Source: Flavobacteriales bacterium (GTDB lineage: Bacteria > Bacteroidota > Bacteroidia > Flavobacteriales_F > PHOS-HE28). From it: DNA of 49,533 nucleotides. The position numbers were made by a program, and so were the translations under genes. The stretch is from NCBI GenBank assembly GCA_018057455.1, contig JAGPDT010000021.1, positions 1 through 49,533 of the forward strand. The letters are read 5' to 3'. The notes under the pieces are model-generated. The model was given only the letters and a program-made list of their open reading frames with translations, was not told where the DNA came from and did not search any database. Positions 13,719 through 24,428 of this stretch are shown here, one piece after another; position 1 is the first letter of the stretch; every line of letters starts with the position of its first letter.

Positions 13719-16700
13719 CTACCGAAGGAGGGTCACATGGCCCTTCAGCTCGTACGGCTCCACGCTGTGTTGGCCGTATGCCCTCACGGACCACACGTAA
13801 ACACCCGCCTCCATGTTGGTGCCGTTGCGGGTGCCGTCCCAGCCCGCGCCAGGGTCCGTGGTTTCAAAGATCCGCTCTCCCCATCGGTTGTACACCACCA
13901 GATGGAAGCCCTCCGGTGAAAGACCGGTGCCTTGGACATGGAACACGTCGTTGCGCCCATCTTCGTCAGGTGTGAACGAATTGGGCACGAACAGCCCAAA
14001 TCGGTCCAACACCGCCACGGACCGGCACGCCATGTCCACACAGCCGTTTGCCGTGATGGCGCTCAGGCAAACGGCATATTCCATGGCCACCCCCACGGGG
14101 AACACATGCACCGGCGACGGTTCCGTGCTGCCCGTGCCATCGCCGAAGTCCCATAGGAAAGCAATGGCCTGGTCATTGGAGTAGTTGGTGAAGGTCACTC
14201 TGGGGTCGTCCACGAACACGGTGGCGGGATCCGCCGTGAAGCTTGCCACCACCGGTGGGGGGCTGCCGATCACAGCCGTACCGCTGGCGCTGCAGCCATC
14301 GCCGTTCCACATGGTGAGCGGATAGCTGCCCGGGCACAAGCCGATGAACAGACCGGTGGCCTGTGGCGCACCCCCGCCCAAACTGTACAGTACCGCGGTG
14401 GGATCCATGACCTGCACCGTACCGTCGCAACTGCTGGTACAGTTCGCATTGGTGGAGACGAACTCACCCATGGCGATCGGCGCCGGTTCCGGTATGTTGA
14501 AGCTGATGGCCGCAGCGCAGTTGTTCGTGTCCGATACGGTGAGCAAGTAGCCCCCTGCACAATAGCCGGCGGAGATCGGTACCGGGCCACCGTTCCCGGT
14601 AGTGAGTGCAAAGCTGTACCCCGAGGGGCCTACGTTGCCGCCTGTCACGTTCACGTTGTAGCTCCCATCGCATGATCCGTTGCACAGCGTTGAGCTTGCC
14701 TCCACCACGGGAAGGATCGCGTCGGTGAAGACAAGCACAACACTATCCGTGAAATGGCATCCTTCGGTGCTGGTGGTGTTCCAAGCGGCAACGAACCGGC
14801 CCGCCACAGGGCTGGCTACCGGGCTGTTGGCTGTATTTGGAGTGGTGAATACCAGCTCCTGCGGGCCGCTCCAGGTACCGGAGGCCCAGGTGCCTGATGC
14901 TTGCAGCTCGGTGCCCAGCGTACAGCTCACGGCATCAGGCCCTGCGCTGGGCGCCGCCACCAGGGCCACGTTCACCGAGGCCAGGTTATCAGTGTTGGGG
15001 CAAGGCGCTGGGGCGGGCACCAGGTAGGTGTAGGAGCCGGGCAGGTCCATGATGGGGTCGTACATTCCACTGTGTGGAAGCCCCGTAGGGCCGGTCCAGC
15101 TTCCGTTCGCGTCAGGCGTTCCGCCCAGCAGGCCGGACAATTCCACGGGGGCACCGTCAGGGCACAAGGTTTCCGCCCCGCCCGTTCCCGGATCCGGTGC
15201 TGGCTGCACGGTGATCACCAATTGGGCGGTGTCCGACGGGCAGGGTGCCACTCCGGCCACCACGTACCTATAGGCACCTGCGATCCCACTGGCAGGGTTG
15301 AACATTGCACCGGCAATTCCGCCGGGACCGGCCCACGTGCCACCGCCATCCGGTGTCCCGCCCAGTTCGTCCAACAGAACGATCGGGGCGTTGCTGGAAC
15401 ACAGGGCGATGCTTGCGTCCATGCCTGCGTTTGCGTATGGCACCATGTCCGCCGTGACGAAAGCCGTGTCATCGGCGCATGCCGCAGCCGCGGAGACTAC
15501 ATACCAGTAGGTGCCCGGCAGCATGGTGCCCGGTGCGAAGCTGCCATTGGTCACCGGGCTGGGCCCGTTCCATGCCCCGCCAGGGTCCGGATCGCCGCCG
15601 AGTGCGTTCAACAAGGCTACCGGTGCATCGCTTGTGCATAGCGTGAACGACCCATCACTGCCGGCCTGGGGTGCTTGTTGCACAGCGATGGCCACCGTGC
15701 TGCTGTTGCCCAAGCAGGGTGCGGGCAGGCTGATGGAATAGGTATATGTGCCCGGGGACATGGTGGCTGGATCGAACACGCCGCCCGCTACGGTGCTGGG
15801 GCCGCTCCAGGTGCCACCGGCCGCGGGGAAGCCGCCCAACAGGCCCTGAAGGCCAACGGGCGCATCCGTGGCGCACAGTGTCAAACTGCCGGAGGTGCCG
15901 GTGTTGGGCAAAGGCGAAACAGTAACCTCCACCGCGGCCGTGGCGGAGGGGCATGGTGCAGGGCCGTTCACCGTGTACGCGTACAGGCCCGGGAACATCG
16001 AGGCGGCATCGAACAAGTTGTTTACCACCGCACTCGGACCGCTCCAGGTTCCGCCGGTGGCCGGCGTGCCTCCCAGCGCATCAACAAGGCTCGCAGGGGC
16101 TTGGCCCAAGCAAAGTGTCATGGTCCCGTCGCTTCCGGCATCCGCCGCTGGTTGCACGCTTACCGTAACCGTGCTGTTGCTGCTCACACAGGGCGGCGGC
16201 ACGCTCAGGGCATAGGTGTACACACCCGGTGCCATGCTCGCCGGGTTGAATGCACCGCCCACAACCGCTGAAGGCCCGCTCCAGGTGCCGCCCATGTCCG
16301 GTGTACCGCCCAACTGGTTGAAAAGGACCACCGGCCCCGCCGTGCTGCACACCGTTATGGACCCATCGGTTCCGCTGTCGGGCGTTGAAACCACCTGCAC
16401 TGTAATGGTGTATTGGGCGGTTGCATTGAGGCAGGCCCCCGTACCGTTCACGGTGTAGGTGTAGGTGCCTGCCGCGTCCGTGCCGGGCACAAACAGGCCG
16501 TTGTGGCCGCTTCCGCCGGGGGCGCTCCACGTGCCCCCCGGTTCGGGGGTGCCGCTGAGCCTGTCGTTCATGTTGAAGGCCGTGCCTGCGTCACACACCG
16601 TTATCAGCGTGTCGGTGCCCGGCCCGGGAGGCGGCTCCACGGTGATCGTTACACAGTCCGTGACTGCACAGTCCGGATGTTGTTCCTGGTGCACAGTGAC

Positions 16701-18824
16701 ACAGTATTGGGTGGTGGTGGATACCGTGGCCACAGGGGCGGCAATGGCGGGGTTGGAGAGTCCCGTGGCCGGGCTCCAGTTGTACACCAAGGCACCGCCG
16801 GGGCAGCTGGCGGTGCCGTTCCACACTACACCATTGGCCGGGTTGCTCCCGCTGTACAATTGTTGGCCTTGCCCGTTGGCAAAAGTGAAGGTCTGCTGCG
16901 GCCCGCCGAGCCAGCCGCCAGCGGCATAGCTCAGACTGAGCGAGGCACCATGCGGGACCGGAATGCCATAATGGATGCTGGAGCCGGCCGGAAGCGTATA
17001 AGTGCCGGTGTTGCCGTTGATGGTCACAGTGACCGCACCGTTCACGGTCCATCCATTCCCGCCGGAATCATACAGCCACAGGTCGTACAGGCAGGTGTCC
17101 GTGATCGGGCTGTTGGCCATGGAGGCAAGTAGTGGTAGGTGGGCGTTGGTGCATACGATGTGGTCCGCACCCGCGTCCACCACCAAGTCCGGTGTAATGG
17201 TCACCAGCACGGTGGTGTCGTACGTGCAGCCGAAGTTGTCCAAGGCGGTGTACATGAAGGGGTAGGTGCCCGGGGCGAGGTTGCCGATGGTGGCCATGTT
17301 GCAATCCGCGCTGGTTGCCTGGATGCCCGGGCCGCTCCAGTAGCTGCTGTCGCAAGCTGCGCCGTACACCGGGGTGAAGGAGAACAGGCTGGGGAACAGC
17401 GATGGGTCGAAATCGATGGACCAGTCGCACATGAATCCGTTGTCCAAGCTCCAGAAATCGCACACTTCAAAGGTCCAGGTACCATTCAACGGGGAACCGA
17501 GCAAGTTGCCCAGCGGCTGCACCGGGGTGTAGGTGCCGGGTATCAGGGCGTTGGAGGCGGGGGTGCCACCGGGCATGACGTGGGGCGTGGAGCCGCTCGC
17601 TGCACTCTGCGCCCACGTGCCCCATGGCGCCGTGGCGCTCCAGCAGTAGTTCCAGCAGGTTCCCGCCACGGGGTTGCCCTGGTTGTCCAGGTCATTGGCC
17701 CCACCGACGTAGGTGCCATCGCCCCCCTGTTGGTGCAGCACCGCGGATTGCCCGTTGGGACTGATGATGCGCACCACCAGGTCGGCCATGTACGAATGCT
17801 CCATGTTCACGCAAATGCCCAGCAACTGGTTGATGTCCGTGAGCGTCTGCCCCGCCCCGAACTGCGTGTAGTTGATCGTACTGGTGAAGCATTGGCCAGC
17901 GCCCCCGGGCATGGCCACGGCTCCGCCGAGGTTGGCCTGGGGCAGTTCGGTCCATGTGGTGCCGGTGACCTGGCCGTTCAATGCGATCGTTTCATTGGGG
18001 CAGGCCGTGGTGCCGCCGGTACCGGTGAATGCCGGTGTGGTGCCCACCAAGGTGGTGAGGGCAATGGTGTTGTTGCTGGCGCATCCCTGATCGTCCACCA
18101 CAACCAATTGTGCCGTGTATGCACCGGGCAGCGTGTAGGTGTGCGCCAACGACGACGGTCCATTGTTCACCACCATGCCATCGCCCAGGTCCCACGAGTA
18201 GCTGGCGATGGTGGCGCCGGCGGCCGCGAAGGAACCGCTGCCATCAACGCTGACGGCCCCCCCTGGACAGATCCGGACCGGAAGCAGGGATCCGTTGGTG
18301 GCCACGGCGGTGGGACGTACACAGGGTTGAAAACAACTGATCAACGCGGTGAACTGACCGGTGCCGTTGTTGTTGGAACGGAATACCACGGTGAGGCAGC
18401 CCGTGGGGTTCGAGGCCGTGGCCGATACCGACTGGCCTTGCAGCTGCGTTCCGGTCCACGTGCCCAGCACGGGTGCCGAGGTGTTGTTGCCGTCGTGGAT
18501 GGTGAGAGCATCGATGGGGGCCGCCCCTGCCGCGCTCAGGTTGAAGATGATGAAGTCCAGCGCAACCGCGCCGCCCGGTGCATCGGGGCACAGGGTGTAG
18601 GTGTAGTTCTCGTTGTTGGCATAACCGGTGGCCCCTTCACCGCCGCTGTCCATGAAGGCACCGGTGCAGCTGCTCCCGGTGCCGTTCATCATGGGGAAGG
18701 TCTGGCCATGCACCTGCACCTGCACGACCGGAAGGGCAGCGAGCAACGCCGCCACGGCCAACCACTGCCGCCCGTGGCGGCGTGGAAAGGAAAGACTTAG
18801 GAACTGCAAGTATGGCAATCCCAT
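13719..18824 (-). CDS. Giant CUB/PKD adhesin with seven ~79-residue repeats and T9SS type-B domain
   Basis: About 1701 residues from the ATG at 18824 (MGLPYLQFL); an in-frame start at 18845 is possible. Signal peptide to VHGQ/T. Order of parts: CUB-like domain (about 45-165, MDSGGEGATGYANNENYTYT, IFNLSAAGAA); PKD domain (SYSWDLGDG); a proprotein-convertase P-domain-like region (ICVNMEHSYMADLVVRI ... LNGTWTFEVCDFW, about 300-475); a central segment with LWLYDSGGNGW; seven tandem repeats of about 79 residues (about 730-1290) built on TLCxxxAPVxLxxxLGGTP, GGTWSGP and PGxYxYxVxxxAPC; SprB-like segments; a second PKD (FLWDFGDG); and a type-B gliding-motility-associated C-terminal domain (NSFTPDEDGRNDVF, VYNRWGERIFE, GHVTLLR). 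Probably a surface adhesin. It shares its first ~500 residues' architecture with the upstream neighbour. Confidence 0.88.
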   Translation of the reverse strand: MGLPYLQFLSLSFPRRHGRQWLAVAALLAALPVVQVQVHGQTFPMMNGTGSSCTGAFMDSGGEGATGYANNENYTYTLCPDAPGGAVALDFIIFNLSAAGAAPIDALTIHDGNNTSAPVLGTWTGTQLQGQSVSATASNPTGCLTVVFRSNNNGTGQFTALISCFQPCVRPTAVATNGSLLPVRICPGGAVSVDGSGSFAAAGATIASYSWDLGDGMVVNNGPSSLAHTYTLPGAYTAQLVVVDDQGCASNNTIALTTLVGTTPAFTGTGGTTACPNETIALNGQVTGTTWTELPQANLGGAVAMPGGAGQCFTSTINYTQFGAGQTLTDINQLLGICVNMEHSYMADLVVRIISPNGQSAVLHQQGGDGTYVGGANDLDNQGNPVAGTCWNYCWSATAPWGTWAQSAASGSTPHVMPGGTPASNALIPGTYTPVQPLGNLLGSPLNGTWTFEVCDFWSLDNGFMCDWSIDFDPSLFPSLFSFTPVYGAACDSSYWSGPGIQATSADCNMATIGNLAPGTYPFMYTALDNFGCTYDTTVLVTITPDLVVDAGADHIVCTNAHLPLLASMANSPITDTCLYDLWLYDSGGNGWTVNGAVTVTINGNTGTYTLPAGSSIHYGIPVPHGASLSLSYAAGGWLGGPQQTFTFANGQGQQLYSGSNPANGVVWNGTASCPGGALVYNWSPATGLSNPAIAAPVATVSTTTQYCVTVHQEQHPDCAVTDCVTITVEPPPGPGTDTLITVCDAGTAFNMNDRLSGTPEPGGTWSAPGGSGHNGLFVPGTDAAGTYTYTVNGTGACLNATAQYTITVQVVSTPDSGTDGSITVCSTAGPVVLFNQLGGTPDMGGTWSGPSAVVGGAFNPASMAPGVYTYALSVPPPCVSSNSTVTVSVQPAADAGSDGTMTLCLGQAPASLVDALGGTPATGGTWSGPSAVVNNLFDAASMFPGLYAYTVNGPAPCPSATAAVEVTVSPLPNTGTSGSLTLCATDAPVGLQGLLGGFPAAGGTWSGPSTVAGGVFDPATMSPGTYTYSISLPAPCLGNSSTVAIAVQQAPQAGSDGSFTLCTSDAPVALLNALGGDPDPGGAWNGPSPVTNGSFAPGTMLPGTYWYVVSAAAACADDTAFVTADMVPYANAGMDASIALCSSNAPIVLLDELGGTPDGGGTWAGPGGIAGAMFNPASGIAGAYRYVVAGVAPCPSDTAQLVITVQPAPDPGTGGAETLCPDGAPVELSGLLGGTPDANGSWTGPTGLPHSGMYDPIMDLPGSYTYLVPAPAPCPNTDNLASVNVALVAAPSAGPDAVSCTLGTELQASGTWASGTWSGPQELVFTTPNTANSPVASPVAGRFVAAWNTTSTEGCHFTDSVVLVFTDAILPVVEASSTLCNGSCDGSYNVNVTGGNVGPSGYSFALTTGNGGPVPISAGYCAGGYLLTVSDTNNCAAAISFNIPEPAPIAMGEFVSTNANCTSSCDGTVQVMDPTAVLYSLGGGAPQATGLFIGLCPGSYPLTMWNGDGCSASGTAVIGSPPPVVASFTADPATVFVDDPRVTFTNYSNDQAIAFLWDFGDGTGSTEPSPVHVFPVGVAMEYAVCLSAITANGCVDMACRSVAVLDRFGLFVPNSFTPDEDGRNDVFHVQGTGLSPEGFHLVVYNRWGERIFETTDPGAGWDGTRNGTNMEAGVYVWSVRAYGQHSVEPYELKGHVTLLR
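14960..16634 (-). repeat. Region coding seven tandem ~79-residue protein repeats
   Basis: Within the giant adhesin, seven consecutive units share a C-containing strand near TLC, the motif GGTP-x-x-GGTWSGP and an APCP-type loop. DNA identity between units is partial, so the array is old or under diversifying change rather than freshly duplicated. Boundaries are approximate. Confidence 0.8.
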
Positions 18825-18897
18825 GGGGCAAAGGCACGGGTTCAAGGTGGGGTGGAAGACCGGTGGACCGAAGGTGAAAAACCGGCCCAGCCGCTGA

Positions 18898-18905
18898 CCA
18901 AACTA
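18898..18905 (-). promoter_or_regulatory. Possible -7 box for the giant adhesin gene
   Basis: On the minus strand this reads TAGTTTGG, a shifted match to TAnnTTTG, about 73 bases before the ATG at 18824. CACCTTCG nearer the gene is an alternative. The evidence is weak. Confidence 0.25.
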
Positions 18906-19024
18906 CATACAAGAACCCGCGAAAAGCCCACTTAGCCGAAGAAAATGATCGCACCATAAATTGCCGATATCGGTCGGCGCATGGAGGCAACCCTGGCCCA
19001 ACCCCCGCGTCCGTCGGCAGCTCC

Positions 19025-22000
19025 CTATCGTACCACGGTCACGTGGCCGCGCAGGTCATGGTTCGTGCGGGTGTACACGGATTGCGCATGCAACATCCAG
19101 TTGTACACGCCGGTCTGCACCTTTTTGCCTTTATAGGTGCCATCCCACCCTGCATGGCGGTCTTTGGTCTCAAACACCGGTTCACCCCAACGGTTGAACA
19201 CCATGAAATGGTATTCCGCATCGGCGATGTCGTTGCCCGACACAAAGAGCAATTCGTTCAGCCCATCCCCGTCCGGTGTGAAGGCCGTGGGCACATACAC
19301 CATGAAGATGTCGTCCACGTTCACCAGGCGGATCACGCTGTCCATGCAGCCCAGCTCGTTCCAAGCCGTGAGCTGCACCCGGTAGATGCTGCCGTATTCA
19401 TCGCTGAAGGTGATGCTCGTGTCCGGTGCGGTGGATGCCGCCAGTCCGGCGAAATCCCACAGGAAACCCGTGGCTGTTGGGCCGGCCGTTTCCTGGAAAT
19501 GCACTTCCGTGTTGAAAATGTCCGGCGGACGTGGGGTCCAGGTGAAGTCCGCATGAGGCATGTCGATCACCGTGATCAGGTCGTTGAACAGCGAGTCGGC
19601 GGTGCAGCCGTTGGGCCAATGCACGGTAATGTCCACGTCGAAGGTCCCGTAAGGCATGTACAAGTGGGGCAAGGCCATCGGTCCACCGGCCAAGGTGATG
19701 CCGTCACCAAACCGCCAATCGGCCGTTCCTCCATTGGTGGTGTCCACCAGGGTGAATTGCACCTCGAAGGGCACGCAGCCGAGCACCGTGTCCGTGTTCA
19801 GGATCAAGGGCGGCAGGGGAAGGATGTCCACCGTGGTGCAAGCCGTCACCGGTGGCGTTTCGCATCCATCGCGCAAGGTCACGCAATACGTGGTGGTCTG
19901 GGTCAGGTTCACGCGGAGCGTATCCTGGGCAAAGGCTCCTAGGCCCCAGTCGAAGGTGTACTGCCCATCGCCGCCGTAGGCGCTGTCGGTGGCCAGCACC
20001 ACATCCACTTCCGGGCAGCTGATCACCGTGTCGGTGACCAATAAGTGCAGTGAGTCGCGCACGGTGACCGCCACGGCGATGGTGTCGGACAAGCAGTTGT
20101 TGGTGTCGGTGGCGAAGATGCGGAACACCGTGGTGGTGGCCGGGCTCACCGGGTGAAGGGTATCTCCCGTGGCGCCGTCACCCCAGTGGATCAACAAGGG
20201 GGCGCTTCCCCCGATCGCGGTGGCCCCCAGTTGGGCCGTGCCGTCCAGGCAGATCGTGGTGTCGGTGCTCACAGTGTTCAGCAGCAAGGCCGGTGGCTGT
20301 TGGATCTCCGCCATCAAGCTGTCCGTGCAACCGTTTCCATTGGGCCCGTCCTGGATCAGTACCTGGTATTCGCCGGCAGGCGCATGGAGCGTATCTCCAA
20401 CCGCACCAATAATGCTGCGTACCACCGACCCGGTGTTGTCCGTCCAGATGTAGTTCCATGGACCGTTCGCCCCGTTGCTGTTCACCACGATGGATCCATC
20501 CATGCCGCCATGGCACAGATGGTCGGTGACGGTTGTGGTGTTCGTATTGGCCGACGGTGGGTTGACCAGTACGCTGTCCACGCTTCCGCACAAGGGATGG
20601 CCCGCCGGAAAGGCATGCAGCGTGTACCAGGTGGGCACCGTGGGTGAGGCTGTTGGGTAGGGTGTGCTGGTGTTGGAAAGCCCGGCACCAGGTGACCACT
20701 GGTATGTGATGGTGCCCAGGGGCAATGGCAGTTGCAGGCCCGGTTGCAACAGGATCGGGGAGCCGCACACCAACCAGGGGTCCACGGTTACGCCGGGTGT
20801 CACGTTGATCGTCAACGTGGTATCGTAGGTGCAGCCGAAGTTGTCGGTCACCGTGTAGGTATACACGTGCGGGCCAACGGCAAGTGGCCGGGCGACATAC
20901 TCCAGCGGGTTCAATGGGTCGTTGGTCAGCGCCGGTCCGCTCCAGTAACTGCTGTCCGAGTGGGCAATGCCCGGGATGGGGGTGTATGTGGCGTCTTCGG
21001 GCAGTATGGAAGGGTCGAAGTTGATGCCCCAGGAACAGATGAAGCCGTTGTCCGCACCCCACCAGTCATTGAAGGTCAAGGTCCAGGTGCCGTTCAAGGG
21101 TGTGCCCGCCAGGGGGTTGAAGGAACCCACCGCTTGGTAGGTGCCCGCCGGCAGGCTCGTGCCACCTCCGGCATTGGCGGCCCAGGTGCCGTTGGTGGCC
21201 ATGGGGCTGAAGCAGTACTCCCAGCATGTGCCGATCTGGGGGTTGCCTTCATCAAAGTCGTTGGGAATGCCCAGGAAAGTTCCTCCTCCACCTTGTTGGT
21301 GCAACATCACGCTCGCTCCGTTGGGCGCGGTGAGCTGCAAGGTGAAATCGCCCATGAACGAGTGCTCCATGCTCACGCAAACCGAAAGGAAATCGTTCAC
21401 GCTCGGCAGGGTGGCACCGGGTGGGAAGGCGGAAAAGGTGATGGAGCTGCTGAAGGGGGTGCCAAGTTGGTCGGGCAGCATCAGGCCGCCGCCGAAGTTG
21501 GCGTCCGGTATGCTGGTCCAGGTGGTGGGTGAAATGGACGTGGTGGCGGTGAGGTTCACCGATTCGCCCGAACAGAAGGTGATGTTGCCGAAGTTGGTGA
21601 AGGTGGGCGGCAGGCTGATCTGCACCGGCAACTGCATGGAGTTGATGTTCACGCAGCCGTTGTCGTCGGTAACGGTGAGGTTCACCACATGTTGGGCCGG
21701 GGGGCCTTGGAATACATGGTCCAGCACCGGTCCGCTGGTGCTGTCCACGGTGCCGTCGCCGAAGTCCCAATGGTACTGTCCAATGTTGAAGCCGCTGGCC
21801 GCGAAGGACCCGGTGGCATCAAAGCCCACGGCCTCTCCTTGGCAGATCAGGGCGGGCGCGGCCTCGCTCATCACGGCCCACGCCGTGGGCGGCTCGCAGG
21901 GATGGCTGCAACTGATGCTGGCCGTGAACACGCCGGTGCCCGTGGCGTTGGAGGTGAACTCCACGGTGAGGCAGCCGCTGGTATTGGCAAAGCTGGCCGA

Positions 22001-22348
22001 GACGATCCCAGGTGAGTTGGTTCCAGACCACGTGGCGATCAGTGGCGCTGATGTGTCGGTCCCGTCGTAGATGGACAACTGGTCGGTGGGCACCGTTCCG
22101 GCCGCGGAAAGATTGAAGATGACGAAGGCAAGGGAGATCGCGCTGTCTGCATCCGCCGGGCAGATGGTCATCACGTAGTTCTCGTTGTCACCGTAGCCGC
22201 TGCCGCCTTCACCGCCGCTGTCCAGCAGGGCTCCGCCACAAGTGGTCACGTTGCCGCCGTTGATGAGGAAGACCTGCCCCTGGGCACAGGGGGCTGCCAG
22301 CATGAAAAGCAAGAACAAGAGCCAGTGGTACGTTACCCGGAAGAACAT
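19025..22348 (-). CDS. CUB/PKD/P-domain adhesin with T9SS type-B domain
   Basis: About 1107 residues from the ATG at 22348, which begins a strong signal peptide (MFFRVTYHW, hydrophobic core, PCAQGQ/V); an upstream in-frame TTG at 22396 is less likely. CUB-like domain (LDSGGEGGSGYGDNENYVMT, VIFNLSAAGT), PKD (QYHWDFGDG), P-domain-like region (VCVSMEHSFMGDFTLQL ... LNGTWTLTFNDWW), YWSGP segment, SprB-like stretch (DHLCHGGMDGSIVVN), further PKD-like modules (ADWRFGDG, FLWDFAG) and a type-B sorting domain (TAFTPDGDGLNE, VFNRWGEPVFE, GHVTVVR). It lacks the seven-repeat array of its downstream paralogue. It lies in a minus-strand run behind the sigma factor and PKD membrane protein, which suggests joint regulation, although a 155-base gap could hold its own promoter. 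Confidence 0.88.
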   Translation of the reverse strand: MFFRVTYHWLLFLLFMLAAPCAQGQVFLINGGNVTTCGGALLDSGGEGGSGYGDNENYVMTICPADADSAISLAFVIFNLSAAGTVPTDQLSIYDGTDTSAPLIATWSGTNSPGIVSASFANTSGCLTVEFTSNATGTGVFTASISCSHPCEPPTAWAVMSEAAPALICQGEAVGFDATGSFAASGFNIGQYHWDFGDGTVDSTSGPVLDHVFQGPPAQHVVNLTVTDDNGCVNINSMQLPVQISLPPTFTNFGNITFCSGESVNLTATTSISPTTWTSIPDANFGGGLMLPDQLGTPFSSSITFSAFPPGATLPSVNDFLSVCVSMEHSFMGDFTLQLTAPNGASVMLHQQGGGGTFLGIPNDFDEGNPQIGTCWEYCFSPMATNGTWAANAGGGTSLPAGTYQAVGSFNPLAGTPLNGTWTLTFNDWWGADNGFICSWGINFDPSILPEDATYTPIPGIAHSDSSYWSGPALTNDPLNPLEYVARPLAVGPHVYTYTVTDNFGCTYDTTLTINVTPGVTVDPWLVCGSPILLQPGLQLPLPLGTITYQWSPGAGLSNTSTPYPTASPTVPTWYTLHAFPAGHPLCGSVDSVLVNPPSANTNTTTVTDHLCHGGMDGSIVVNSNGANGPWNYIWTDNTGSVVRSIIGAVGDTLHAPAGEYQVLIQDGPNGNGCTDSLMAEIQQPPALLLNTVSTDTTICLDGTAQLGATAIGGSAPLLIHWGDGATGDTLHPVSPATTTVFRIFATDTNNCLSDTIAVAVTVRDSLHLLVTDTVISCPEVDVVLATDSAYGGDGQYTFDWGLGAFAQDTLRVNLTQTTTYCVTLRDGCETPPVTACTTVDILPLPPLILNTDTVLGCVPFEVQFTLVDTTNGGTADWRFGDGITLAGGPMALPHLYMPYGTFDVDITVHWPNGCTADSLFNDLITVIDMPHADFTWTPRPPDIFNTEVHFQETAGPTATGFLWDFAGLAASTAPDTSITFSDEYGSIYRVQLTAWNELGCMDSVIRLVNVDDIFMVYVPTAFTPDGDGLNELLFVSGNDIADAEYHFMVFNRWGEPVFETKDRHAGWDGTYKGKKVQTGVYNWMLHAQSVYTRTNHDLRGHVTVVR

Positions 22349-22503
22349 GGATGGTCGAATTGCCTGATCGCGGTGATGACGCACTTCTAAGCCCAATTGG
22401 TGCCTAAGATCGACAAGGTCCGGCGCGCTTGGGCAACAGGAACCCCGGATTCTTGGAACGCCGCCTCAACGCTCCCCTGGACCGCTTGCCCGTGGAACCA
22501 GGC

Positions 22504-23766
22504 CTATCGCACCAATTGCACGGTGCCGGTGAAGGTCTCCGTGCGTTGGCCGGTGGCCACGTCGGCCACCCACACGTAATGGGCAGCGGGCAGCACCGCT
22601 CCTTGGTTATGGGCCTTGCCCAGCCAAGGTCGGCTGGCGTTGCTGGTACTGTACACCAACCGCCCGGCCGGATCATATACGGCGAAGCTGAACTTGGCCC
22701 GTAGTTGCAGGAGGGTCTGCGGCATGAAGCTGTCCTCTTGGCCGTCGCCGTCAGGTGAGATCCGTTTGGGCGCGGCCAGGTCAAAGTCATGGTCGATGGT
22801 CAATTCCTTCACCTTCCGGTCCACACAGCCCGTTGCATTGGTCACTGTTTGCACCACTTGGTAGGTTCCCTTCTTCCGGTACACGTGGTCCGGGTTGGCA
22901 TCGGTGCTCACCGCGCCGTCGCCCAAGTCCCAGTGGTAGCTGTGTGCGCCTTCTGCGCGGCTCTCGAAATGCACGCTCGGTACCTGCCCCGGGTATTCCT
23001 GCTTGATGATGTTGAAGGTGGCCAGGGGTGCCTCATGGATCACGATCATCCCGCTGCTGGCCTTGTTGCGGATGGAACCAGCCCCCGATGAGGTCATGGA
23101 CAGCATGACCTGGTACGTGCCGGGCTTGGTGAAGACGTGCTCGGGATCGGCCTTGTTGCTGAAGTTGCCATCGCCGAAGTTCCACAGGTAGATCCCGTCT
23201 TCGGGCATGTGTTCCACGGTGAAATGCACCGGGTCGCCCGGGCAGGTCTCCTTGGTGCTGGCCCGGAAGAACGAGGCCGCATCCGGCGGTGTCCCGGCAG
23301 GAGGTGCAGCCGGGGTGTTGCCCGTTGTTGCCTTGGTGGTTACCGGTCGTGGTCGTGTCTCCTTCGCCGGGGACTTGGTCTTCCCTGCGGCGTTGTCACC
23401 CCAGGTGGTTCCACTTCGGGGCGCTTGCGGTTCCATCCTTGTAGCGGCGGCTTCCAACGACTCGCCCGGCATTTCGGGGCTGCTGCCGGACTGCAGTGTG
23501 GGGGCAGCAACTGGATCGGCCGGTTGGGATGTTTGGGTTTCCGCCAGTTGGCTGCCTTTGTCCATACCTATATAGTAGGCGGTGCCACCGATCAACAGGC
23601 CACCGGCCAGGAGCAACCCGGCCACCAGCGCGCGGCCGTGCCCCCAGCCTCGCACTCCGCTGCTCAGCGCCCGGTCCATCTGCGCCCAGTCCGCCGCATT
23701 GTAGGGCACCTCATAGTGCTCCAACCGCTCTTTGACCTGCCGCTCAAAGGCATCCATATCGTTCAT
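22504..23766 (-). CDS. Single-TM PKD protein, candidate anti-sigma/surface sensor
   Basis: About 420 residues from ATG 23766 (an in-frame start at 23778 is possible). The first ~45 residues are charged and cytosolic-looking (MNDMDAFERQVKERLEHYEV, then PYNAADWAQMDRALS), a pattern I associate with short anti-sigma-type N-termini of this phylum. One TM helix follows (AGLLLAGGLLIGGTAYYIG, about 46-67), then a Pro/Thr-rich linker, two PKD domains (YLWNFGDGNFS; YHWDLGDGAVS) and a type-B gliding-motility-like C-terminal domain (RISPDGDGQEDSFMP ... GTVQLVR). The gene starts about 20 bases after the sigma-factor stop, so they form one operon. The inferred role is to bind the sigma factor inside the cell and sense something outside. 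There is no zinc-binding ZAS motif, so this rests on context and topology. Confidence 0.75.
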   Translation of the reverse strand: MNDMDAFERQVKERLEHYEVPYNAADWAQMDRALSSGVRGWGHGRALVAGLLLAGGLLIGGTAYYIGMDKGSQLAETQTSQPADPVAAPTLQSGSSPEMPGESLEAAATRMEPQAPRSGTTWGDNAAGKTKSPAKETRPRPVTTKATTGNTPAAPPAGTPPDAASFFRASTKETCPGDPVHFTVEHMPEDGIYLWNFGDGNFSNKADPEHVFTKPGTYQVMLSMTSSGAGSIRNKASSGMIVIHEAPLATFNIIKQEYPGQVPSVHFESRAEGAHSYHWDLGDGAVSTDANPDHVYRKKGTYQVVQTVTNATGCVDRKVKELTIDHDFDLAAPKRISPDGDGQEDSFMPQTLLQLRAKFSFAVYDPAGRLVYSTSNASRPWLGKAHNQGAVLPAAHYVWVADVATGQRTETFTGTVQLVR

Positions 23767-23786
23767 CTTTTCCACCATTGCTGCGC

Positions 23787-24428
23787 TTAAGTGGTGCGGT
23801 CACGCTGTTTCAGCAACTGCTTGAGGTTCGCCTTTGCTTTGGCCAAATTGCTTTTCGAGGTGCCGATGTTGATGTCCAACGTTTCGGCGATTTCCTTGTG
23901 GGTCATTTCCTCGAAGACGTACAGGTTGAAGACCGTGCGATAGGCCGGGGTGAGCTTCTGCATGGCATTGATCACGTCCGCCGGCTTCACCTCGGCCCAA
24001 GCGGCCTGTTCCTCCGTGCTTTCCTCCGGAATGTCCTCGAACTCCTCCATGCTGCGGTCTTCGCCCAGGAGCAGGTAGGAATGCTTGGCCCGCCGGAAGT
24101 GGTCGATCGCGGTGTTCACCATGATGCGGCGCACCCACCCTTCGAAACTGCCGGACCGGTTGAACTCCCCCAGGTTGCGGAACACCTTGATGAAACCGTC
24201 CTGCAGGATGTCCTTCGCCTGGTCGTGGTTCTTGGTGTAGCGAAGGCAGATGGCCATCATCTTGCCGTAGAAGACTTCGTAGACCCGCTGCTGGCTCTTG
24301 CGTTCGCCGGCCAAGCAGCCATCGATGAGGCTGTCGTACGCTTGTCCCGATGGGTCCATGGTTTTCCATGCAGGTCCAAGACGCACGCTGGTCTCCATGG
24401 TTGCCAGTTCAATGTCCTGTTGGGCCAT
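23787..24428 (-). CDS. ECF-type sigma-70 family RNA polymerase sigma factor
   Basis: 213 residues from ATG 24428; later in-frame ATGs at 24398 and 24359 are possible. Region 2 is clear (YDSLIDGCLAGERKSQQRVY, KDILQDGFIKVFRNL, GSFEGWVRRIMVNTAIDHFR), followed by an acidic linker and region 4 (LTPAYRTVFNLYVFEEMTHK and the helix-turn-helix EIAETLDINIGTSKSNLAKA). There is no region 1 or 3, as in ECF factors. The downstream PKD membrane protein is the likely partner and the adhesin genes beyond it are possible targets. TATCTTCA on the minus strand at 24441-24448 is only 12 bases before the ATG at 24428. Confidence 0.92.
   Translation of the reverse strand: MAQQDIELATMETSVRLGPAWKTMDPSGQAYDSLIDGCLAGERKSQQRVYEVFYGKMMAICLRYTKNHDQAKDILQDGFIKVFRNLGEFNRSGSFEGWVRRIMVNTAIDHFRRAKHSYLLLGEDRSMEEFEDIPEESTEEQAAWAEVKPADVINAMQKLTPAYRTVFNLYVFEEMTHKEIAETLDINIGTSKSNLAKAKANLKQLLKQRDRTT

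Follow-up and report, generated by a model that had tools for sequence, protein, structure and literature searches.

The 49,533-nt stretch of contig JAGPDT010000021.1 analysed here (hereafter the window; Flavobacteriales bacterium, assembly GCA_018057455.1) carries on its minus strand, in order, the gene for an extracytoplasmic function (ECF) sigma factor, the gene for a membrane protein with two PKD domains (the PKD protein), and the genes for two giant surface proteins, giant 1 and giant 2. This order on one strand had been given by a first-pass annotation, and reading frames and domain matches bear it out. The locus probably encodes a sigma/anti-sigma pair resembling the Dma systems of Bacteroides thetaiotaomicron, with an autoregulated promoter and a dispersed regulon of secreted and envelope genes, the giants being reached mainly by read-through, if at all. 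On sequence grounds, the PKD protein is very probably the membrane anti-sigma factor of the adjacent sigma factor, since 45 of the 47 genes with its N-terminal domain come immediately after an ECF gene. This pairing had been proposed by the first-pass annotation and is supported both by the linkage and by a layout that is Dma-like except at the C-terminus.

Linkage and architecture of the candidate anti-sigma factor

The linkage was counted with profile A3, 37 columns built from the N-terminal domain and searched against 30 genomes of the class Bacteroidia (E < 0.006, own count). The ECF gene lies directly upstream and on the same strand in all but two cases, L247 and L248 (G035:C8). The C-termini of the A3-matching partners vary, being barrel-like, CHU_C, or PKD-CHU_C, where the label barrel-like reflects sequence ends judged by eye, without a family match. 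Among 57 sigma loci, partners with the tryptophan motif of this domain occur only beside ECF sigma factors scoring above 135 bits on the sigma profile A1, and none is found beside sampled ones below 100 bits. Because the C-termini differ and the partners are restricted to high-scoring ECF sigma factors, the cytosolic motif is the part held in common and tracks one ECF clade.

A scan of the named genomes with the sigma alignment yielded 80 loci, in most of which the next gene encodes a protein of ~400–460 aa with the invariant-tryptophan N-terminal motif, a transmembrane helix starting at residue ~41–55, and a CHU_C-like end. In the sigma tree, the window's clade comprises 15 rows (support 98/91). 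Orthologues of the sigma factor and the PKD protein adjoin in nearly all sampled genomes of the genus, the sole one without a match (G012) being 76% complete, and also in other families (G030, G036, G026). It is very improbable that the PKD protein is merely a membrane protein in a passive neighborhood of the sigma gene; synteny with mdh is itself old in the lineage, but the ECF linkage of the N-terminal domain holds across many genera and with differing C-termini.

Several side observations concern these partners. The N-terminal motif is present in two or more tandem copies in L091 (at least five), L100, L101, L132, L135, L165, L172, and L174, as though a single such protein had room for several sigma molecules. 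A different small membrane protein, with 'F-VP-YF' motifs that are repeated in some cases, comes after other ECF genes (L210, L215, L225, L226, L227, L229, L236, and L241) and is a candidate second family of ECF partners. In addition, L139, L138, L148, and L157, from records titled Glaciecola amylolytica, Kuenenia, Polynucleobacter, and Chryseobacterium, fall in Crocinitomicaceae-like branches; probably these records are mislabeled or come from mixed assemblies.

The short cytosolic N-terminus, single transmembrane helix, and two PKD domains that had been described for the PKD protein are all recovered, together with a C-terminal CHU_C domain that had been overlooked. Likewise, its gene had been placed 20 bases past the sigma stop, and in-frame ATGs indeed lie 8 or 20 nt after it. 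In an AlphaFold2 (AF2) model based on an alignment with 49 relatives, the PKD-PKD-CHU_C array is modeled confidently. The N-terminus is probably inside, since a stretch rich in arginine and histidine precedes the transmembrane helix. This N-terminal part has no family match in Pfam or NCBIfam, the protein has no match in either to a recognized class I anti-sigma domain (ASDI), and the PDB, searched with a profile of the N-terminal domain, yielded nothing credible. Foldseek with the full model matched only Ig/PKD-like arrays, such as GhpA. As a separate observation, one cysteine per PKD domain, Cys179 (23242–23244) and Cys318 (22825–22827), is invariant in the 49 relatives (alignment A2), possibly as a disulfide or redox feature.

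The C-terminal domain is recognized by PF13585 above its cut-off of 27 bits (44.6 bits), and scores 25.7 bits with TIGR04131, below the cut-off of 35. CHU_C domains of this kind are type-B sorting domains of the type IX secretion system (T9SS) in cargo proteins, but those of the partners differ: the RWG motif is present in 56 of 58 cargo domains and in none of 52 partner domains, which conserve residues of their own in its place. Nor does the PKD protein have the cleavable signal peptide of type-B cargo, ~48 residues preceding its transmembrane helix as read from sequence and model. The loss of RWG and the presence of a membrane anchor instead of a cleavable signal peptide argue that the partner CHU_C has ceased to be a sorting signal of the ordinary kind.

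Promoter motif and predicted regulon

Footprinting within the genus revealed AGGCATCC-N15-CGTCT before the sigma gene in one subclade and, with equal spacing, TGGCAACC-N15-CGTCT in the window's subclade, the window itself having GGCAACC...CGTCT. The motif precedes the sigma gene in 41 of 66 loci (at most one mismatch, spacing 15 or 16), whereas shuffling predicts 0.1, and this conservation points to an autoregulated ECF promoter. The sigma start had been set at 24428, which is probably too far upstream: the conserved promoter lies within the 24428–24359 stretch, so the likely start moves to Met24 at 24359. Sigma regions 2 and 4 are both recognized in the product, and the stop is at 23787. In the second subclade (L281–L310), no more than 8–12 nt separate the promoter from the first ATG, which suggests that transcripts there are almost leaderless, and the motif recurs ~84 nt downstream.

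The motif also occurs elsewhere. The AGGCATCC form has 43 sites in 45 genomes of the genus, compared with one for the reversed pattern, and the exact GGCAACC form has 66 sites in 14 genomes of this genus, compared with six for the reversed pattern. Thirteen of these 66 are at the sigma gene, and ~38 of the remaining 53 precede genes whose products begin with a signal peptide or membrane segment (own reading). The genes so preceded encode DUF5684 proteins in nine genomes and TraB/GumN proteins in six, as well as secreted proteins (several with type-A T9SS tails), SprB-like proteins, and one PorG-like protein. In other families, a DUF5684 site recurs in Cryomorpha and G075, and a PorU2 site is found in G076. 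From the motif, the predicted regulon thus extends more widely to surface and T9SS-related genes. The 17 sigma-type matches listed for the window's genome include just one with an exact site upstream, namely the sigma gene of the window. The window's genome encodes SprA (2555 bits), and the T9SS is therefore present.

Downstream giants and proposed mechanism

Both giants have PKD and P-domain matches and CHU_C ends, as had been described; the CUB domains also reported are marginal in giant 1 and below cut-off in giant 2. Co-occurrence of the four genes in relatives, which had been suggested as a check, is found in part: the pair is widely kept and giants accompany it in the window's clade and in several further ones, but many relatives are without them. 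Downstream giants occur in the window's clade, in one Vicingaceae group, and in L152, and none is found in the Crocinitomicaceae branch, which keeps the sigma/anti-sigma pair. In G019, of the same genus, mdh and gyrB flank the pair and giants are missing; nor was a homolog spanning the N-terminal half of giant 1 found elsewhere in that genome. Passive synteny with mdh and gyrB is ruled out as a full explanation of the giant linkage, because giants remain where mdh is gone and mdh remains where giants are absent. Giants adjoin ~20 of 59 CHU_C-ended partners and none of 30 others (Fisher p 9e-5, a guide only, as the loci are related), in our own merged count of partners with enough downstream sequence, with L167 corrected and the duplicate L089 removed. 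The repeat region of giant 2 (GGTWSGP units) differs in length between genomes, and a single reading frame of 3536 aa with CHU_C stands in place of the giants in G004 (L072).

The first-pass annotation had regarded the locus as self-contained, with the PKD anti-sigma factor sensing the surface or the adhesins and the sigma factor mainly driving the two adjacent adhesin genes. Such a switch has in its favor that the adhesin linkage is kept in the window's clade even without mdh synteny, and that an exact motif copy precedes a second CHU_C gene in L125 (Vicingaceae) and a one-mismatch copy a giant in L082. However, these are exceptions: no site was found before 22348 or 18824, the upstream gaps of giants in sampled loci average 3.0 mismatches versus 3.26 in shuffled sequence, which is near chance, and most motif copies are dispersed before other genes. 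Moreover, the pair is kept without giants in many relatives, G019 and Crocinitomicaceae among them. A self-contained switch is thus improbable, and the adhesins found here are an addition specific to the lineage. The 155-bp gap before giant 1 has no terminator-like site on the coding strand, so read-through into giant 1 is possible.

In the mechanism proposed for the Dma-like pair, the two-helix N-terminus (residues 8–40) would hold the sigma factor at the inner membrane in the off state, while the transmembrane helix and the ~95-residue tether would place the PKD domains and the CHU_C-derived domain in the periplasm, where the array may read a T9SS- or envelope-related signal. Once released, the sigma factor would transcribe its own gene and that of the anti-sigma factor from GGCAACC-N15-CGTCT, together with the dispersed secreted (often T9SS-tailed) and envelope genes, and would reach the giants, if at all, mainly by read-through.

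It is tempting to go further, tentatively, and to suppose that this class of anti-sigma factor has swapped the Dma barrel for a derivative of a T9SS sorting domain, that its end in the periplasm keeps watch on the T9SS (translocon occupancy or cargo), and that the sigma factor adjusts cargo and machinery, a secretion-coupled feedback switch across Flavobacteriales. We consider this conceivable, with the chances rather against it. If the T9SS link is true, it would explain how Flavobacteriales match cargo production to secretion. Slightly less likely still is a general envelope-stress switch, in which T9SS-tailed targets are incidental, as many secreted proteins of these bacteria use the T9SS, and the PKD-CHU_C array does no more than bridge the periplasm. 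The DUF5684 and TraB/GumN targets fit this alternative, as does the partner CHU_C, which, having lost RWG, need not contact the T9SS, and barrel-ended Dma versions control vesiculation (PMC13088901). On the other side are the PorU2 and PorG-like targets and the fact that CHU_C-ended partners, unlike others, adjoin type-B cargo genes.

Several points weigh against the Dma-like pair with its dispersed, T9SS-related regulon. Mutual-information analysis of sigma–partner coevolution (73 pairs, effective number of sequences 45; underpowered) gave top pairs that are an artefact of invariant columns. The window's genome has three exact sites only (sigma, DUF5684, and one unclear), and a one-mismatch search found nine sites versus 35 for the reversed control, that is, no enrichment; the local regulon is therefore small or the motif looser. 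Another ECF sigma factor could share the motif. The PKD/CHU_C part, moreover, may have nothing to do with the T9SS and serve as a structural or ligand-binding array.

Table 1. Features of the locus in the window (coordinates are window positions)
Feature	Position	Strand	Basis
Putative ECF promoter of sigma gene, GGCAACC-N15-CGTCT	24379..24405	-	exact match; across the order, motif and spacing recur upstream of the orthologous sigma genes
ECF sigma factor, 190 aa from likely start Met24	23787..24359	-	TIGR02937 108 bits, Sigma70_r2 and r4_2; start inferred from promoter position
PKD protein, Dma-like membrane anti-sigma candidate, 424 aa	22504..23778	-	domain matches, AF2 model, relatives
Cytosolic sigma-linked domain, residues 8–40, two helices, invariant Trp31	23659..23757	-	AF2 helices 8–20 and 28–40; profile A3
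Transmembrane helix, residues 49–72	23563..23634	-	AF2 helix and hydrophobicity
Disordered tether, residues ~73–170 (~95 residues)	23269..23562	-	model confidence (pLDDT) mostly <50 over 73–164
Two PKD domains, residues 171–247 and 255–328	22795..23268	-	PKD_4 97.5 bits; pLDDT mostly >90
Diverged CHU_C (type-B T9SS sorting-like) domain without RWG	22507..22773	-	PF13585 44.6 bits
Giant surface protein 1, 1107 aa, signal peptide, CUB/PKD/P-domain/SprB-like, CHU_C	19025..22348	-	domain matches; CUB just above cut-off
Giant surface protein 2, 1701 aa, PKD, P-domain, repeats, CHU_C	13719..18824	-	domain matches; CUB below cut-off

Comparison with known systems

The Dma proteins, described in 2024, are said to have closed part of the gap left by missing anti-sigma factors in Bacteroidetes. 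In this phylum, a class I anti-sigma domain is linked to only 6% of the ECF sigma factors (PMC7406223). The class II anti-sigma domain of CnrY binds its ECF sigma factor with two short helices (PMC7406223), which the N-terminus of the PKD protein resembles in helix number but not by any sequence match in the PDB profile search, its binding being predicted. In Porphyromonas gingivalis, SigP, with PorX/PorY and PorA, places T9SS genes under an ECF sigma factor (PMC4800418, PMC8265659, PMC7712824). The likeness lies in an ECF sigma factor controlling T9SS genes and a protein bearing a C-terminal sorting domain feeding the pathway, both as predicted for the pair here. However, SigP works together with a response regulator, PorA is secreted to the cell surface, whereas the PKD protein is a transmembrane anti-sigma candidate, and the reported SigP motif is unlike GGCAACC-N15-CGTCT. 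The SM6 ECF promoters of Flavobacterium psychrophilum, whose sigma factor is unassigned there, have targets including GldN, PorU, and an ECF/anti-sigma pair (PMC9723704), and are likened to the present motif by these described targets, not by the −35 sequence.

The closest comparison is with Dma1 and Dma2, anti-sigma factors of the ECF21 sigma factors Das1 and Das2 in B. thetaiotaomicron, which comprise an N-terminal sigma-binding domain, a transmembrane helix, a tether, and a barrel; the ECF21 gene is adjacent, and sigma dependence has been demonstrated genetically (PMC13088901). The PKD protein shares the adjoining ECF gene, the single transmembrane helix, and the long disordered tether, and its cytosolic N-terminal domain may correspond to the sigma-binding one, but it ends in PKD-PKD-CHU_C where the Dma proteins end in an outer-membrane β-barrel. 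The Dma regulon covers vesiculation and polysaccharide utilization loci, whereas secreted or T9SS-tailed and envelope genes are predicted here. Profile A3 groups the N-terminus of the PKD protein with those of the partners judged by eye to end in a barrel, in the genomes searched. Because this motif is shared and the layout matches, the PKD protein is best read as a Dma-like anti-sigma factor with the barrel replaced, one that by analogy would work like Dma while standing, for want of a barrel, outside strict membership of the family. What is added to the known systems is a small N-terminal profile marking ECF partners in many genomes, an anti-sigma version with a T9SS-type end in place of the barrel, and a promoter sequence through which the regulon can be put to a direct test.
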